The notes under the pieces were generated by a model, which saw nothing but the letters and a program-made list of their open reading frames with translations, was not told the DNA's origin and ran no database searches. From Sediminibacterium sp. (GTDB taxonomy: Bacteria; Bacteroidota; Bacteroidia; Chitinophagales; Chitinophagaceae): DNA of 64,000 bases. This document shows positions 3,352 through 16,703 of this stretch, piece by piece; positions within the stretch are counted from its first letter, which is position 1, and each line of letters starts with the position of its first letter. Location of the stretch: positions 372,001-436,000 of the forward strand of contig NZ_JAUYTR010000011.1 of NCBI RefSeq assembly GCF_030695065.1, in the 5' to 3' direction. The position numbers and the translations under genes were made by a program.

Positions 3352-6124
3352 TAATCATTCTCCCTTTTACAAAAATAAATTTCTTTACCTGTTTACCTTC
3401 TAGCCATTTCAGTACCAACTCATTCGCAAGTACAATATTTTGCGCCTCTTTTGCTTCCATATCTAAAGGCAAATTAATATTGGTTCTTACCCTTCCATTA
3501 ATGCTCACTGGGTAATCTTTAGATGACTCCTGAACATAAGATGCATTAAATGCAGGAAATGTTGCATCTAAAATAGAACCTGTATTCCCCAACTGATGCC
3601 AAAGTTCTTCACTAATATGTGGCGCATAAGGCGTTAATAGAATCAGTACTTGTTCTAAAACAGCTTTCTTATTGCATTTTAAATCGGCCAATTCATTCAC
3701 ACAAATCATGAACGTACTCACCGCAGTATTAAAACTAAACCGCTCCGTATCTTCTTGAATTTTCAATATGGTTTTATGCAATACTTTTTGCTCAGATGGA
3801 TTAGGGCTATCGTTGTTCCAAACCTTCCCTTTTAATTCATCATAAAATAAACGCCAAAGTTTTTTCAAGAAACGATGCACGCCTTCAATACCCTTGGTAT
3901 CCCAAGGTTTGCTCTGGTCTACAGGACCTAAGAACATTTCGTACATGCGGAAAGTATCGGCACCATATTTTTCTACCAATACATCTGGATTAACCGTATT
4001 GAATTTACTCTTCGACATTTTCTCTACTTCGGCACCGCAGAGGTATTTGCCGTTTTCTAATACAAAAGTTGCGTTGGCATATTCTCCATTTCGCCATTGC
4101 TTAAATGCAGCTATATCTAATTCAAATCCATCAACAAAATTGACGTCTACATGAATTGGATTGGTATCGTATTCATTTATTAATCCTGCAGAAATAAATT
4201 CATTGGGGTTTTGTTTATTCCGATAAACAAATCTTGAACTTCCTTGAATCATTCCTTGGTTCAAGAGTTTTCTAAATGGTTCATCAAAACCAATATGGCC
4301 TAAGTCGAATAATACTTTGGTCCACATTCTACTGTAGAGTAAATGGCCTACGGCGTGTTCTGTTCCCCCAATATATAAGTCTACTTGATTCCAATAATCA
4401 CTCACTTTTTTATCGCAGAAAGCCTCATTGTTATGCGGATCCATATAACGTAAAAAATACCAACTACTACCAGCATAACCCGGCATGGTATTGGTTTCTA
4501 GCGCACCGCCAGGAACAATAGAATCATATTGATGAATCCATTCAGGAATATTCGCCAGCGGCCCTTCTCCCTCCGGACCAGGTGCATAACTGTCTACCTG
4601 AGGCAAGGTCAAAGGTAAATTCAATTCATCTAAAGGATACGCAATACCTTCTTTCCAAATAATGGGAAAGGGTTCACCCCAATAACGCTGTCTGCTAAAT
4701 GCAGCATCCCGCATTTTATAATTCACTTTTCGTTTACCAATGCCCCTTTCAACCAGCTTGTCAATAACAATTGCAATGGCATCTTTTAAAATAACCCCGT
4801 CTAAAAATTCGCTATTAGTCAGCGCCACATCTTTGGTTGAATTGGCTTCTTCTCCATTAAAATGTTCACCAATAATATTGGTGATGGGTATATTAAAATG
4901 TTTCGCAAATTTAAAATCTCTTTCGTCTCCGCAAGGAACGGCCATAATTGCTCCTGTACCATAACCAGCTAATACGTATTCAGATATCCAAATAGGAATG
5001 GGTCGTTGGTTAAAAGGATTCAATGCATAAGCACCCGTAAAGCAACCAGTGATTTTCTTTTCTGCCTGACGCTCTCTGTCACTTCTGCTTTTAACGTAAG
5101 TGATATATTCTTCAACCACTTGTTTTTGTTCCGCTGTGGTTATCTGCGCTATCAACTCATGCTCTGGAGCCACTACCATAAAGTCTACACCAAAAATGGT
5201 ATCAGGTCGGGTAGTATATACCCGCAATGGTTGGTCAGTTGCCGATTGGGCAATGGCAAAATCTATTTCGGCCCCGTAAGATTTTCCAATCCAATTGGTT
5301 TGCATTTCGCGCATGGCTTCGCTGAACTCAATTTGATCTAAGCCGCTGATTAATCGATCGGCATAATCGGTTATGCGCAAATACCATTGTCTTAATTTTT
5401 TCTTCACTACCGGATGACCACCTCTCTCACTCAATCCGTTTACTACTTCATCATTGGCCAATACTGTACCAAGCGCTTCGCACCAATTCACTTCACCATA
5501 TCCACAAAATGCCAAACGATATTGCATTAAAATGTCTTGCTGTTCTTTTTCAGAAAAAGCCTTCCATTCAGCCGCAGTAAATTGTAGTTGATTATTAGCA
5601 GGGCATTCATGTACAGTGTTTCCCTCTTTTTCAAACAAAGCAATCAACTCATTAATAGGCGTTGCTTTTTGGGTATGCCTATTGAAAAAAGAATTGAATA
5701 ATTGCAAGAAAATCCACTGGGTCCATTTATGGTAATCGGGCTCACAAGTTCTTACTTCTCGGCTCCAATCGTAAGAAAAACCAATATTGTCTAATTGTTG
5801 TCTGAAGTTATTGATGTTTTGAACAGTGCTGGTTGCAGGATGAACACCGTGTTCAATGGCATATTGTTCTGCGGGCAATCCAAAGGCATCATATCCCATG
5901 GGATGCAATACATTAAAGCCTTTTAGTCTTTTATACCTGCTGAAAATATCAGAAGCAATATAACCCAACGGATGGCCTACATGCAAACCCGCTCCACTCG
6001 GATAAGGAAACATATCCAATACATAGTACTTGGGTTTTTCGCTGATATTGGGAACCGTATATGCTCCGGAATTTTTCCAATGCTCCTGCCATTTTTGTTC
6101 AATTGCTCTAAATTGATAGTCCAT
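3338..6124 (-). CDS. leuS: Leucyl-tRNA synthetase
   Basis: Class I aminoacyl-tRNA synthetase that charges tRNA-Leu in the cytoplasm. The HIGH-type signature is HVGH at residues 48-51 and KMSKS is at residues 702-706. A CP1 editing domain lies between them, with the editing motif TTRPDT in YTTRPDTIFG. At 928 residues it is longer than the E. coli enzyme, with an insertion after the catalytic Rossmann start, as I recall for Bacteroidota LeuRS. It is transcribed from a promoter back to back with that of ftsX and overlaps the downstream barrel gene by 14 bases. Confidence 0.97.
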   Translation of the reverse strand: MDYQFRAIEQKWQEHWKNSGAYTVPNISEKPKYYVLDMFPYPSGAGLHVGHPLGYIASDIFSRYKRLKGFNVLHPMGYDAFGLPAEQYAIEHGVHPATSTVQNINNFRQQLDNIGFSYDWSREVRTCEPDYHKWTQWIFLQLFNSFFNRHTQKATPINELIALFEKEGNTVHECPANNQLQFTAAEWKAFSEKEQQDILMQYRLAFCGYGEVNWCEALGTVLANDEVVNGLSERGGHPVVKKKLRQWYLRITDYADRLISGLDQIEFSEAMREMQTNWIGKSYGAEIDFAIAQSATDQPLRVYTTRPDTIFGVDFMVVAPEHELIAQITTAEQKQVVEEYITYVKSRSDRERQAEKKITGCFTGAYALNPFNQRPIPIWISEYVLAGYGTGAIMAVPCGDERDFKFAKHFNIPITNIIGEHFNGEEANSTKDVALTNSEFLDGVILKDAIAIVIDKLVERGIGKRKVNYKMRDAAFSRQRYWGEPFPIIWKEGIAYPLDELNLPLTLPQVDSYAPGPEGEGPLANIPEWIHQYDSIVPGGALETNTMPGYAGSSWYFLRYMDPHNNEAFCDKKVSDYWNQVDLYIGGTEHAVGHLLYSRMWTKVLFDLGHIGFDEPFRKLLNQGMIQGSSRFVYRNKQNPNEFISAGLINEYDTNPIHVDVNFVDGFELDIAAFKQWRNGEYANATFVLENGKYLCGAEVEKMSKSKFNTVNPDVLVEKYGADTFRMYEMFLGPVDQSKPWDTKGIEGVHRFLKKLWRLFYDELKGKVWNNDSPNPSEQKVLHKTILKIQEDTERFSFNTAVSTFMICVNELADLKCNKKAVLEQVLILLTPYAPHISEELWHQLGNTGSILDATFPAFNASYVQESSKDYPVSINGRVRTNINLPLDMEAKEAQNIVLANELVLKWLEGKQVKKFIFVKGRMINVVI

Positions 6125-10491: not shown

Positions 10492-11289
10492 CTATCTTTT
10501 AGAAATAAGTGAGCTAAAGGGATAACGTAAGTTTTTGTATCCCATCATATCCACTTTTACACTACCTACAACAATGGGGCTTTCAATTCTAAGTGGAACA
10601 TGATTGGCGTCATCACTCACCCAAACAGTCATTTTTTCGCCCCCTTCAAATAAAGTTCCTTTAACTAGTAATGGTTTAAATTTAATGGCATTGAACTTAC
10701 CATATCGTGTTTTAATGGTTTCTCTACCCAAATATTTTATATATAAATTATAAACTTCATTGTCTAAAAACATAGTGAATGGAATTCTATCTTCAGGCTT
10801 GTATTTTTCAAAATCAATATTGCGAGCATAATAGATTGCACTTAATACATCCTGCACACAGTTGGGCACTTTAACAGTCCCCTTCTCGCTAGTAGCGGTA
10901 TTGGCAGTTCTATTGAAAGTTACATTTTCATTAATCTTGTATCCACCTTCATCTACATTTCGGATGAATTTAATGGGCTGCAAATTAGCCGTATCAATAA
11001 AGCTTTCATACTTGTCTCTCACTTTAAATATCCAATCGTAGCTGCTATTAGAATTACCAGCACCTACTAAGTGATAAACTGGCGTATTATTTAATTTGTC
11101 TGAATTAACAGTAAAAGTAGCCGCACCTGCATTTACATACAATCCAATTACGTTGTAAAAAACAGTGAACGAAATTTGTTCTCCACTTTGAAATGCATAA
11201 TTCCTTATACCACAGAAATCATCTCCTGCAGAAAGTGGTTTTACTAAAATCACTAATAAAAATACAATCAATAATTTTTTAGCACCCAT
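10492..11289 (-). CDS. DUF3108 domain-containing exported protein
   Basis: A 265-residue protein with an N-terminal signal peptide (cleavage near PLSAG). The rest is predicted beta-rich and matches the DUF3108 family, seen in the segments YAFQSGEQISF and DVLSAIYYARN. DUF3108 proteins are periplasmic with a fold related to lipoprotein carriers, and their function is not established. The gene follows the flippase-like gene by 3 bases and probably shares its transcript, so a role in envelope lipid handling is possible (inference only). Confidence 0.75.
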   Translation of the reverse strand: MGAKKLLIVFLLVILVKPLSAGDDFCGIRNYAFQSGEQISFTVFYNVIGLYVNAGAATFTVNSDKLNNTPVYHLVGAGNSNSSYDWIFKVRDKYESFIDTANLQPIKFIRNVDEGGYKINENVTFNRTANTATSEKGTVKVPNCVQDVLSAIYYARNIDFEKYKPEDRIPFTMFLDNEVYNLYIKYLGRETIKTRYGKFNAIKFKPLLVKGTLFEGGEKMTVWVSDDANHVPLRIESPIVVGSVKVDMMGYKNLRYPFSSLISKR

Positions 11290-12908: not shown

Positions 12909-13304
12909 TTACTGATGCAGTTCAGCCAGAATACTTTGTTGAACCGACCGCAGTTCTTCTTGGCTTAATGATAATTTACCTCTAGTAAAATTTAAGTCAT
13001 CGGCGCTGTTAATGGGAACAAGGTGCATATGTGCGTGTGGCACTTCTAATCCCACCACACTGATACCGCAACGATTACAAGGAAAGGCTTTTTCTATTGC
13101 TTTGGCAATGGGTTTCGCAAATAGCAACATTTGAGTAAGGTAATCATCAGGCAAATCAAAAAAATGATCTGTTTCAATTTTAGGTATAACCAATACATGA
13201 CCTTTTACCAGAGGAAAAATGTCTAAGAAAGCAAAGAACTGTTCGTTCTCTGCAATCTTATAACAAGGTATTTCTCCAGCAATGATTTTTGAGAAAATAG
13301 TCAT
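12909..13304 (-). CDS. HIT family protein (histidine triad nucleotide hydrolase)
   Basis: A 131-residue HIT-superfamily protein. The triad is His90, His92 and His94 in HAHMHLVP, preceded by the typical GHVLVIPK segment. Members hydrolyse or transfer nucleoside monophosphates from dinucleoside polyphosphates or adenosine phosphoramidates; the substrate here is unknown. It lies 9 bases downstream of greA and probably shares its transcript, including the terminator-like leader. Confidence 0.93.
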   Translation of the reverse strand: MTIFSKIIAGEIPCYKIAENEQFFAFLDIFPLVKGHVLVIPKIETDHFFDLPDDYLTQMLLFAKPIAKAIEKAFPCNRCGISVVGLEVPHAHMHLVPINSADDLNFTRGKLSLSQEELRSVQQSILAELHQ

Positions 13305-13313
13305 GACTTTAAT

Positions 13314-13790
13314 TTAAACTGTAATTTCTTCCACCCTAAATTTAATGACACCATTGGGTGCTTGCACTTCAGCCACTTCGCCCCTAACTTTACCCAATAA
13401 GCCCTTACCAATTGGAGAAGATGCAGAAATTTTACCCAATTTTAAGTCGGCTTCTTTCTCACCAACTATTTGATAGGTAACCGTTTTTTTAGTAGCCATA
13501 TTGGTAATAGTCACTTTGGTCAATATGGTTACTTTACTGGTATCAATGGTACTGGTATCTACAATTTTAGCATTGGCAATAGCGCCTTCTAATTGCTTTA
13601 TTTTTGCCTCAAGCATACCTTGCGCTTCCTTGGCTGCATCGTATTCGGCATTTTCTTTTAAATCACCTTTCTCTCTAGCTTCAGCAATAGCTTTAGAAGC
13701 GGCAGGACGGTCAACAGATTTCATTTTCTGCAATTCCTCGCGCATCTTATCGAAAGTCTCTTTCGTAACATACATATTGGTTTCACTCAT
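13314..13790 (-). CDS. greA: Transcription elongation factor GreA
   Basis: Binds the RNA polymerase secondary channel and stimulates cleavage of backtracked transcripts. The N-terminal coiled coil has the acidic tip in the segment GDLKENAEYDAAKE, and a C-terminal FKBP-like domain follows (SSPIGKGLLGKVRGE). The ATG at 13790 gives 158 residues, the usual size. A longer in-frame GTG start (13832) would place translation inside a terminator-like hairpin and add 14 unrelated residues. Another ATG five codons in (13775) is possible. The leader is unusual and is listed separately. Confidence 0.95.
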   Translation of the reverse strand: MSETNMYVTKETFDKMREELQKMKSVDRPAASKAIAEAREKGDLKENAEYDAAKEAQGMLEAKIKQLEGAIANAKIVDTSTIDTSKVTILTKVTITNMATKKTVTYQIVGEKEADLKLGKISASSPIGKGLLGKVRGEVAEVQAPNGVIKFRVEEITV

Positions 13791-13812
13791 GGTACCCGAC
13801 TTTAAGATTGGT

Positions 13813-13849
13813 AAAAAAAAATACAACGCCACATTTGACTGCGGCGTTG
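13813..13849 (-). terminator. Terminator-like hairpin in the greA leader
   Basis: Read on the minus strand, a perfect 7-base GC-rich stem (CAACGCC paired with GGCGTTG, 13824-13830 with 13843-13849) with a 12-base loop is followed after two bases by nine uninterrupted T residues (13821-13813). This is a classic intrinsic terminator. It lies between the greA promoter box and the greA start. No minus-strand gene ends upstream of it, because the neighbouring ABC operon is divergent. Confidence 0.75.
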
Positions 13850-13857
13850 CATAAATA

Positions 13858-13865
13858 CAAAGGTA
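13858..13865 (-). promoter_or_regulatory. -7 promoter box for greA
   Basis: The minus strand reads TACCTTTG, a perfect TAnnTTTG match. It predicts a start near 13853, so the terminator-like hairpin would sit at the very beginning of the greA transcript. Confidence 0.65.
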
Positions 13866-13931: not shown

Positions 13932-13955
13932 TAGCTTTACTGTGTACTATTACAC
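13932..13955 (+). promoter_or_regulatory. Putative promoter and operator of the GntR-regulated ABC operon
   Basis: TAGCTTTA at 13932-13939 is one mismatch from TAnnTTTG. Directly after it lies a short palindrome, GTGTA-CTAT-TACAC (13942-13955), and a further TACAC at 13959. The palindrome covers the predicted transcription start, which is where a repressor such as the operon's own GntR protein would act. Binding by that protein is an inference. Confidence 0.45.
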
Positions 13956-13968
13956 TAATACACCAATA

Positions 13969-14802
13969 ATGATCCGATTTAACAATGTTAGTTTTGGGTA
14001 CCCCAAACAAAAACTACTTTACGCCAATATTGATTTAGAATTGAAGGCGGGCAGTGTGTATGGACTATTGGGTAAAAATGGAGCAGGAAAGTCTACATTA
14101 CTTAAACTAATGGCTGGGCTGGTTTATCCGACGCACGGAAAACTATCTGTTTTTAATGCAGACCCTACCAAAAGAGAACCCTCGTTTCTGCATGAGGTAT
14201 TTTTCATCCCAGAAGAAATTGATACACCTAGTTTGCATGTGCTTGATTTTGGCGCCGAACATATGCCCTTTTATCCAAAATTCAATAATGAGCAATTCTT
14301 ACATTACTTAAAGGAGTTTGATATTCCAATGACCAACTTGAACAATATGAGTTTTGGTCAAAAGAAAAAGGTTTGGATTGCTTTAGGGATGGCATCCAAT
14401 GCTTCACTCATTATTCTAGATGAACCAACCAATGGATTGGATATACCATCCAAAAGAAAACTTCGAAAATTAATCGCAAGTGTTATTAATGAAAATACCT
14501 GCATGATCATCAGTACACATCAAGTAAAAGATTTAGACAGTTTGATTGATAAAATTATATTAGTTGATGAGGGCGAAATAATTGTAAACACCGATACTGA
14601 ATCCATCACAGAAAAATTAGTATTTAAGTTGTCATCCGACATTTCAACTACTGAACAGTATTTATACTACGAAAGCAGTTTAGCGGGTAATCTAATTGTA
14701 AAAGAAAGAACCTCGGAAGATGAAGCGACCAAACTAGATCTTGAACTGTTCTTTAATGCTGGAATCAACAATAAAAATGAAATAAAACAACTTTTCAATT
14801 AA
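13969..14802 (+). CDS. ABC transporter ATP-binding protein
   Basis: A 277-residue nucleotide-binding subunit. Walker A is GKNGAGKST, the signature is the variant MSFGQKKK, Walker B is LIILDEPTNGLD and the switch His is in ISTHQ. It pairs with the membrane protein gene that overlaps its stop. Export or bacitracin/cell-wall-stress response is typical for ABC modules linked to YtrA-type regulators (family knowledge), but the substrate is unknown. I prefer the ATG at 13969. An in-frame GTG at 13942 lies inside the putative operator and would add nine residues of no domain value. Confidence 0.85.
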   Translation: MIRFNNVSFGYPKQKLLYANIDLELKAGSVYGLLGKNGAGKSTLLKLMAGLVYPTHGKLSVFNADPTKREPSFLHEVFFIPEEIDTPSLHVLDFGAEHMPFYPKFNNEQFLHYLKEFDIPMTNLNNMSFGQKKKVWIALGMASNASLIILDEPTNGLDIPSKRKLRKLIASVINENTCMIISTHQVKDLDSLIDKIILVDEGEIIVNTDTESITEKLVFKLSSDISTTEQYLYYESSLAGNLIVKERTSEDEATKLDLELFFNAGINNKNEIKQLFN

Positions 14803-15635
14803 TGGCTATGAATAACGAGTTCAGTTTTAGGAGGGTACAACTTTTATTGAGAAAAAATTTCAAAGAAAATGGCAGACGCTATCTGCTGATGTTTATCGCG
14901 GGTTTTGGCATAATCTTTTTAATCTATGGATTATTAATTGTTGGGAGTTTTCATAATATGTTCCCATCTGGGGATAGAAAAATGCTTTTTACAATTGGAA
15001 TCTTTTTAGGAGGGACATTATTTTCTGCCAGTTTCTATAGCTTTTTTAAATCGCAACCTAAAACCATTCAATTCATTTTATTGCCGGCAACGACTGGTGA
15101 AAAACTATTGATCAGTTTTGTTTTAACCCAATTCGTTTACATCATTGTGTTTTTAATCAGCTTTACCAGCATTGACTGGTTAATGTGTACCATTTATAAT
15201 GAATTTGTATCAATACCGAAATGGATTGTTGAACAAGAGAAGCATTACTATAAAGCAATGTACCTATTTAATTCAAATACAGTACTAATAAAAGAAATAT
15301 TGATTATGTACTTTATCACTACTTCTATTGCGCATTTAGGGTCACTGAGTTTTATCAATAATGCCTATGTCAAAACCGTCATCTTATTTATTCTAACTGT
15401 AGTTGCTTTGATATTCTTAAACAACAAAATGTTGGATTTAATGATTCCTGAACCTATTATGCCACGTGGGCAATATTTCACCGTTTCTTTTAGTATTGGA
15501 GATAAGCACCAGCCCACAGGAATTGTGAAATTACCGAATCTTTGGTTCACAATAATAGCTTGGTTTTTACCAATATTTTTATACATAAGCTGCTGGACAA
15601 TGAGCTACTTTAAAATTAAGGAGAAGCAGATTTAA
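14802..15635 (+). CDS. Membrane protein, probable ABC transporter permease partner
   Basis: A 277-residue protein with about six hydrophobic helices and no clear named family. It starts within the stop codon of the ATPase gene (TAATG overlap), so translational coupling and a shared complex are likely. Hydrophobic segments are visible near residues 28-48, 62-84, 95-120, 165-185, 190-206 and 246-268. The most economical reading is an ABC-2-like permease, based mainly on context. A second in-frame ATG lies two codons in. Confidence 0.65.
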   Translation: MAMNNEFSFRRVQLLLRKNFKENGRRYLLMFIAGFGIIFLIYGLLIVGSFHNMFPSGDRKMLFTIGIFLGGTLFSASFYSFFKSQPKTIQFILLPATTGEKLLISFVLTQFVYIIVFLISFTSIDWLMCTIYNEFVSIPKWIVEQEKHYYKAMYLFNSNTVLIKEILIMYFITTSIAHLGSLSFINNAYVKTVILFILTVVALIFLNNKMLDLMIPEPIMPRGQYFTVSFSIGDKHQPTGIVKLPNLWFTIIAWFLPIFLYISCWTMSYFKIKEKQI

Positions 15636-15649
15636 ACTAAAAAGAGCAG

Positions 15650-16039
15650 ATGAATTTTCATTCAAATAAAGCCATATACATACAAATTGCCGATCTGATT
15701 TGTGAAAAAATTCTTTCTGGAGCATTTAAGGAAGAGGAAAGAATTCCTTCAGTAAGAGAATTGGCAGTTGACTTAGAAGTGAATCCAAATACGGTGATGA
15801 GAACCTATGAATACTTACAAGATTTAGATATCATCACCAATAAAAGAGGGGTGGGCTTTTTCGTGAACATTAATAGCATCGAAAGAGTAACAGCCTATTT
15901 AAGAAAAGAATTTATGGAACAGGAATTGCCCAACTTATTTAAGAATATGAAAATACTGGCAATCAATATCAATGAAATAGATAAACTGTATCAACATTAT
16001 TTGCAGAACAACATAAATAATAGCAATGAAAAAAAGTAA
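15650..16039 (+). CDS. GntR-family transcriptional regulator, YtrA subfamily
   Basis: A 129-residue regulator with an N-terminal winged helix-turn-helix. The typical segments IPSVRELAVDLEVNPNTVMR and the wing (NKRGVGFFV) are present. The C-terminal part is only about 55 helical residues, the short effector region that defines YtrA-type members. These usually repress neighbouring ABC transporter genes. It lies 14 bases after the membrane protein gene and overlaps the next gene by 14 bases. A palindrome upstream of the operon is a candidate operator. Confidence 0.88.
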   Translation: MNFHSNKAIYIQIADLICEKILSGAFKEEERIPSVRELAVDLEVNPNTVMRTYEYLQDLDIITNKRGVGFFVNINSIERVTAYLRKEFMEQELPNLFKNMKILAININEIDKLYQHYLQNNINNSNEKK

Positions 16040-16703
16040 TATTCTAATAATCATCACCCTCTCCATTGTTTGTATTTGCTTTATTGCTGTAAATATAAAA
16101 TTGAGCATGGAGTATAAAAAAGGAGCAATTCAATCTTTTACGCAAAAGAAAATGCTGCCGATTTTCCATCATATAAAAGAACTAAACAATTTAAAAAACA
16201 TAGAATATACATATAAACCAGTTATCAGTATTTATGAGCGAAAAGATACCAGTGCCATTGCATATAAATTTTACAACCCAATTGGTTATGATTTTTATGT
16301 AAAAGCTGATACTTTATATATTAAGTTAGATTATCCATTGGATGGTAATATTCCTACTATTGATATTTATTGTAAAAACTTGAAGTCATTAATTACGAGT
16401 AATTCAGTAGTAACCCTATACAATTATAAGACCGACAGCATATACCTTGAATCCAATCGAAGCTCAAGCATCAATGCAATAGATATTAATAGCAAGTCTT
16501 TAAAACTGAGGGCACAAGATAAATCAACCGTATCCGTTTCAGGAGCAGACACAATCGGTAAATTAGAAATAAAAGCACTGCAAGAGGGGAATATCAATTT
16601 GCAAAATCTTTATTTTAAAAAACAACTGCTAAGCATCGATTCATCCGCATCGCTAACAGTTACAGGGAAAACACTTAAAGCATTAAATAGTGCTCAGTTT
16701 TAA
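16026..16703 (+). CDS. Membrane-anchored DUF2807-like (GIN-domain) protein
   Basis: A 225-residue protein with one N-terminal membrane helix or signal anchor (about residues 5-26) and a C-terminal region made of short repeating beta-strand units with many Ser, Thr, Asn and Ile. This resembles the right-handed beta-helix of DUF2807 'auto-transporter head' proteins. The assignment rests on pattern only. It is the last gene of the GntR/ABC operon and overlaps the regulator gene by 14 bases. Its stop overlaps that of the convergent dehydrogenase gene by 4 bases. Confidence 0.6.

Follow-up and report, generated by a model that had tools for sequence, protein, structure and literature searches.

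The greA gene of a Sediminibacterium sp. (Bacteroidota; Chitinophagaceae) carries in its leader a strong hairpin followed directly by a run of nine T residues, placed between a promoter box and the start codon. The gene lies on the minus strand of a 64,000-nt stretch of DNA (assembly GCF_030695065.1, contig NZ_JAUYTR010000011.1, positions 372,001–436,000), hereafter the window, to which coordinates refer unless stated otherwise. With a probability of roughly 0.7, we read the element as a premature intrinsic (Rho-independent) terminator located right at the beginning of the predicted transcript of greA and the HIT-family gene downstream of it, which would attenuate both genes, with feedback by GreA as the likeliest signal. 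An initial annotation of the window, made from its letters alone, had pointed to a terminator-like hairpin in this leader, and the analysis bears this out. Its spread exceeds what that annotation had guessed, as hairpin and T tract are found in 116 of 132 greA leaders read across the phylum. The features of the leader, read 5´ to 3´, are as follows.

13858–13865, minus strand: -7 promoter box TACCTTTG, an exact TAnnTTTG, by direct reading
13850–13853, minus strand: predicted transcription start region, placed from the box (+1 = 13853; nearest purines 13852 and 13850)
13840–13849, minus strand: 5´ stem arm CAACGCCGCA, from terminator scan and fold; its base CAACGC is nearly invariant in the family
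13834–13839, minus strand: loop GTCAAA, from the fold; varies in sequence and length among relatives
13824–13833, minus strand: 3´ stem arm TGTGGCGTTG, from terminator scan and fold
13813–13821, minus strand: nine-T tract, by direct reading
13813–13852, minus strand: predicted terminated leader RNA of about 40 nt, deduced from the positions of box and T tract
13791–13812, minus strand: spacer of 22 bases between T tract and greA start, unconserved (48% mean identity in relatives)
13314–13790, minus strand: greA, 158 aa, ATG at 13790, with a GreA_GreB_N domain (E 2.5e-28)

The promoter box, described in the initial annotation as perfect, is indeed an exact match, and 8 bases separate it from the hairpin core (13849–13824). 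The 10-bp stem grows to 13 pairs with the flanking AUG/UAU (13852–13821), and the dinucleotide TA stands between the 3´ arm and the T tract. The hairpin had been called strong and GC-rich. Its strength stands: for the 46-base strand the predicted folding energy is -20.7 kcal/mol, shuffles average -6.6 (z -6.57), and none of 200 shuffles did as well. The second attribute was overstated, since 6 of the 13 pairs are G-C in the terminator scan, which makes for a strong stem but not an extremely GC-rich one. The nine T residues and a distance to greA of some 20 bases were read correctly. A stable stem-loop with a T tract directly after it has the form of an intrinsic terminator, and in the terminator scan the site is listed first of 14 in 9.5 kb (shuffles average 6.8 sites). 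Among 126 hairpin-plus-T sites counted over 284 kb of the organism's own genome, both strands included, it is the seventh strongest. TAnnTTTG is reported as the -7 box of the primary sigma factor and occupies -12 to -5 in Flavobacterium (PMC9723704). With the box placed in this way, transcription would start at about 13853–13850, at the foot of the hairpin (13852 = +2), and a transcript ending in the T tract would measure about 40 nt, in agreement with the size foreseen in the initial annotation.

Absence of the structure from close relatives was to count against the initial annotation, and it is present in all of them. The close-relative set consists of the best 80 of 541 GreA-relative loci, the named ones being from Sediminibacterium and other Chitinophagaceae; two of them, L092 and L017, are apparently one and the same record. 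In 80 of the 80, CAACGY..GGCGTTGT[A/C] and at least seven T are found upstream of greA. A TAnnTTT(G/A) box ends 5–10 nt ahead of the CAACG arm in 78 of them, in 73 of these as the exact TAnnTTTG. Alignment A1 joins the window with 79 of the 80 loci (L053 omitted). Averaged over alignment columns of the 80 relatives, identity reaches 91% in the 5´ arm, 98% in the 3´ arm including TA and 100% at the first seven T positions, and it falls to 50% at 21–40 bases upstream and 48% past the T tract. The loop differs in sequence and length while the paired stem stays conserved.

Pairing was examined in a wider-family alignment (A4), for which 61 sources were supplied, 55 were aligned and 6 scored under the cut. 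The base of the stem, CAACGC/GCGTTG, is almost constant, and changes in the upper stem preserve its pairing. Paired cells amount to 98.1%, compared with at most 65% in slid versions of the alignment. There are 18 cells in which both sides have changed and 16 further pair types, and neither number was reached in 500 shuffles. Because A4 was fitted to the model's own structure, which favours it, and related rows can beat shuffles without any structure, these figures support RNA pairing of the upper stem rather than prove it. At one stem position U-G wobble is the commonest pair (39 of 54 sequences), as if the stability of the stem were tuned rather than maximal.

Beyond the family, greA was located in 144 of 159 genomes of the order and in 158 of 158 genomes of the phylum sample, and 132 leaders in 39 families were read from about 292 different greA-bearing genomes; 52 of these leaders were best matches and 80 were hand-picked across the tables before the leaders had been seen. 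The detector called a hairpin of -6 kcal/mol or better with a T-rich tail, 10–110 nt before the ATG. For comparison we used dinucleotide shuffles of the same leaders, recA and gyrA leaders (30 best matches each, one of the 30 unusable in each case, from other genomes than the greA leaders and with up to four candidate ATGs allowed) and other genes preceded by 70 or more free bases (greA excluded, genes called by simple open reading frame (ORF) rules). The 116 of 132 greA leaders with hairpin and T tract compare with 254 of 1320 shuffles (19%), 4 of 29 recA leaders, 9 of 29 gyrA leaders and 38 of 223 other genes. At -12 kcal/mol or better the counts are 90/132 for greA, 26/1320 for shuffles, 2/29 for recA, 4/29 for gyrA and 14/223 for other genes. 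An exact TAnnTTTG 0–15 nt before the hairpin accompanies 50 of the 132 greA hairpins and 5 of the 1320 shuffles, and none of the 29 recA, 29 gyrA and 223 other leaders. With narrower windows hairpin and T tract persist in 110 of the 132. They are present in at least half of the leaders read in 35 of 39 families, many of which are represented by one leader. Of the 53 hairpins with an exact box no more than 20 nt away, 40 begin 3–8 nt downstream of the box, corresponding to positions of about -1 to +5.

Judged by eye, neighbouring families have motifs of the stem in common: the AACGC or AACGT type occurs in families f1, f3, f10, f12 and f20, AGTCAG-type stems in f36, f38 and f49, and CGCCGC-type stems in f34, f39, f46 and f56. 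The stems of distant families differ, with AATCCCG in f25, AAACCTGG in f33 and CCACTGC in f37. Taken from the motifs themselves and not from a tree, this pattern would fit inheritance with turnover of the stem, repeated origin being a possible alternative. The recurrence of the arrangement with changing stems implies that the arrangement is selected more than the sequence, and it provides dozens of natural variants to compare.

We propose that transcription begins right at the hairpin foot or only a few bases from it, and that the first 30 nt or so fold into the hairpin on leaving the polymerase. At the T tract some polymerases would stop and release an RNA of about 40 nt, and the remainder would read into greA. 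How many read through would depend on the condition of the early elongation complex: its speed, pausing, backtracking and bound factors. With a start at the hairpin foot there would be no upstream RNA from which to form an antiterminator, so that the choice would rest with the polymerase and its factors, which become the most plausible sensors. In the best fold of the first 153 nt the hairpin stays intact. GreA activity is the most likely signal by analogy, in a feedback loop like that of GraL, the greA leader RNA of Escherichia coli. Even for E. coli, the control of GreA levels is understood only in part.

The likeness to GraL had been drawn in the initial annotation, and it holds up. Applied to E. 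coli K-12 greA, the hairpin finder used here identifies the GraL terminator, at -18.6 kcal/mol and 102 nt before the annotated ATG. As described for GraL, only about one third of transcripts pass the terminator, and GreA that is catalytically active works through it in cis to reduce greA expression; the authors call the loop unique yet hard to classify (PMC6829880). Both systems have an intrinsic terminator, predicted in our case, in the greA 5´ UTR (untranslated region) near the promoter, and the RNA of 37–47 nt from promoter P2 is close in size to that predicted here (PMC6829880). They differ in that the GraL hairpin follows after about 19 nt and ours is predicted near +2 (PMC6829880). In addition, the distance from terminator to ATG is about 100 nt in E. 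coli and about 20 nt here, and the present promoter is of the Bacteroidota type.

Attenuation of greA is not confined to E. coli. In a comparison of 302 genomes, greA/rnk came seventh among attenuated gene families, and attenuators of greA have been described in Proteobacteria, bacilli and Clostridia (Naville and Gautheret, 2010; PMC2965389). These leaders likewise have a premature terminator ahead of greA. Every model published there has an antiterminator, for which our leader would have no upstream room if the predicted start is right (PMC2965389). The string "Bacteroid" is absent from the main text of that paper (PMC2965389). Structured 5´ regions are described for Flavobacterium psychrophilum, among them Bacteroidota leaders that lack an Rfam match; the examples in the main text are pheA, hisG, ftsY, acsA, alaS and rimP, and greA is not among them (PMC9723704). 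The main text of the Bacteroides thetaiotaomicron map does not mention greA either (PMC7366714). No paper linking greA, Bacteroidetes and an intrinsic terminator or attenuator was found in a literature search whose coverage left out most subscription papers. We call greA attenuation known elsewhere and the Bacteroidota version, with a hairpin predicted near +2, apparently new.

A broader and more tentative proposal, which we hold to be possible rather than probable, is that the element is a Bacteroidota-wide, minimal polymerase-sensing attenuator of greA. It would be contained in the first 40 bases or so and have neither sensor RNA nor antiterminator; read-through would report stalling, and GreA would close the feedback. 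If this were true, then together with the cases from Proteobacteria, bacilli and Clostridia it would make premature termination a very widespread control of the level of this cleavage factor, kept despite turnover of the stem.

Several observations weigh against attenuation at a hairpin that abuts the start. The effect of GreA on GraL was seen in vivo but not in vitro (PMC6829880), which leaves the direct signal unsettled even in E. coli. No exact box lies 0–15 nt before the hairpin in 82 of the 132 leaders, so that an abutting start is not shown for these; many families outside the class lack a recognised box, and the hairpin can be 60–100 nt from the ATG. The hairpins of family f25 are weak (13 of 15 leaders have one, 1 of 15 at -12 kcal/mol or better), and family f18, of the same order, retains the hairpin in 5 of 12 leaders and has mostly lost it, so the element is not indispensable. 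The closest set, in which the arms hardly vary, shows zero covariation, and in the wider family 3 pairs have a double change, a number reached by 32 of 500 shuffles. Finally, the frozen CAACGC/GCGTTG base exceeds the sequence conservation that a plain terminator needs; termination alone does not account for it. As a separate matter, the f18 loci (e.g. L112–L115, L126, L141, L168 and L177) offer a natural contrast for functional work.

The same features admit other explanations. The hairpin could be a 5´-end cap that protects the greA-HIT mRNA from decay, with the U-rich stretch aiding ribosomes and little termination taking place. A start at the hairpin foot would give an mRNA that begins with a strong stem-loop, and that fold of the first 153 nt leaves the start codon outside the hairpin. 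Protection needs no T tract, however, and the tract is flush with the stem in 80 of 80 relatives and in most leaders of other families despite their differing stems; the combination of box, hairpin and T tract was found in 0 of 223 other genes, 0 of 29 recA and 0 of 29 gyrA leaders. We consider the cap unlikely, if worth keeping in mind. It is less likely still that the leader RNA is a trans-acting small RNA, greA merely being downstream of its terminator. GraL is reported to act in trans (PMC6829880), the predicted size of about 40 nt fits, and the stem sequence is frozen within the family. Against this, it is the paired arms that are conserved and the unpaired loop, the usual pairing seed, that varies, so that no conserved unpaired pairing region was found among the relatives, in a comparison that included no target search; moreover, the stems differ among distant families. 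A trans-acting role of the short RNA is thus weakly disfavoured.

If the inverted repeat were instead a DNA operator for a repressor that overlaps the start site, its dyad would be well placed, covering about +5 to +30 of the predicted transcript, with a base that hardly varies among family members. Arm substitutions nevertheless mostly retain RNA pairs, often as G-U wobbles, the 3´ arm is conserved above the 5´ arm, and the T tract is conserved like the arms, which together make an operator very improbable. We give almost no credence to the view that the element merely serves as the 3´ terminator for its upstream neighbour or that the hairpin arose by chance. In favour of this view, an upstream gene on the same strand is present in 66 of the 80 close-relative loci, and the hairpin is found in 66 of 66 of these and in 25 of 31 sampled loci of the same arrangement. 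The initial annotation had noted that no minus-strand gene upstream would need a terminator, and this is so: the nearest gene in the window (13942–14802) is on the plus strand, divergent from greA, the promoter box lies in between, and a chance origin sits poorly with the z of -6.57. Next to a divergent neighbour the hairpin is still there, in all 12 close relatives of this arrangement and in 19 of the 21 such loci sampled, and we reject an upstream-gene terminator; the strand of the neighbour was judged crudely from ORFs, and 2 of the 80 close loci were too short to be judged.

Other candidates were considered and set aside. A 16-codon ORF runs through the hairpin with its ATG at the predicted start (13852–13802, minus strand), which suggested a leaderless peptide. 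Among the 80 relatives the codon before CAACGC is ATG in only 34, GTG in 8, TTG in 1 and none of these in 37, and a conserved start was not found. A riboswitch-type sensing domain was not found in the close relatives either, as the arm follows 5–10 nt after the box in 78 of 80 and the upstream flank is about 50% identical. A terminator sequence shared across the genome was rejected, because the greA leader site is the only one of the 126 hairpin-plus-T sites with GCGTT near the end of the 3´ arm.

The exact leader pattern occurs once in the organism's own genome, and a looser 16-base search of it gave one exact site and twelve with two mismatches, compared with three for the control. A covariance model (R1), built from the window and 27 loci (alignment A2), matched 41 times among 298 genomes of the order, in 40 of them; 38 of the matches are upstream of greA, 8 placed by coordinates (window included) and 30 by the sequence around the match (19 of 20, 4 and 7). 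The three matches away from greA (in G229 and G157, and the second of G275) have the weakest E-values, all above 0.007; one is antisense within another ORF, one lies between two ORFs, and for the third there was no greA in the 501 bases examined. With strict filters R1 matched 5 of 395 genomes of the phylum sample, all of the own family. It misses members of that family (20 genomes among the listed non-matches), yet 20 of 20 family leaders read have hairpin and T tract. To the extent that R1 can resolve it under strict filters, the full sequence appears confined to the own family. Rfam gave no match at gathering score in 20 loci, and six weak matches at the stretch in the window were all far below gathering scores.

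The genes on either side of the leader are the following.

12909–13304, minus strand: HIT-family gene, 131 aa, 9 nt downstream of greA, from the ORF list
13942–14802, plus strand: nearest upstream gene, presumably an ABC ATPase, from the ORF list; divergent from greA

The GreA_GreB_N match at greA is the sole one in the genome by Pfam domain search. For the downstream ORF we have assumed the HIT family name, as used in the initial annotation. A HIT relative lies downstream of greA on the same strand in 79 of the 80 close-relative loci, and greA and the HIT gene are likely to be co-transcribed. On the divergent side, four ORFs, including one of 129 aa, lie head to tail at 13942–16703 (plus strand); we take them to encode an ABC ATPase, a membrane protein, a GntR-type regulator (the 129-aa ORF) and a further product.

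Separately from the greA leader, the same genome contains near-identical strong GGGGGC...GCCCCT hairpins with T tails at L228 (near 3972–4000), L229 (near 11056–11084) and L232 (near 13183–13209), all in reverse-strand coordinates. The first two are nearly identical and the third is similar, and they may represent a repeated terminator-like element.
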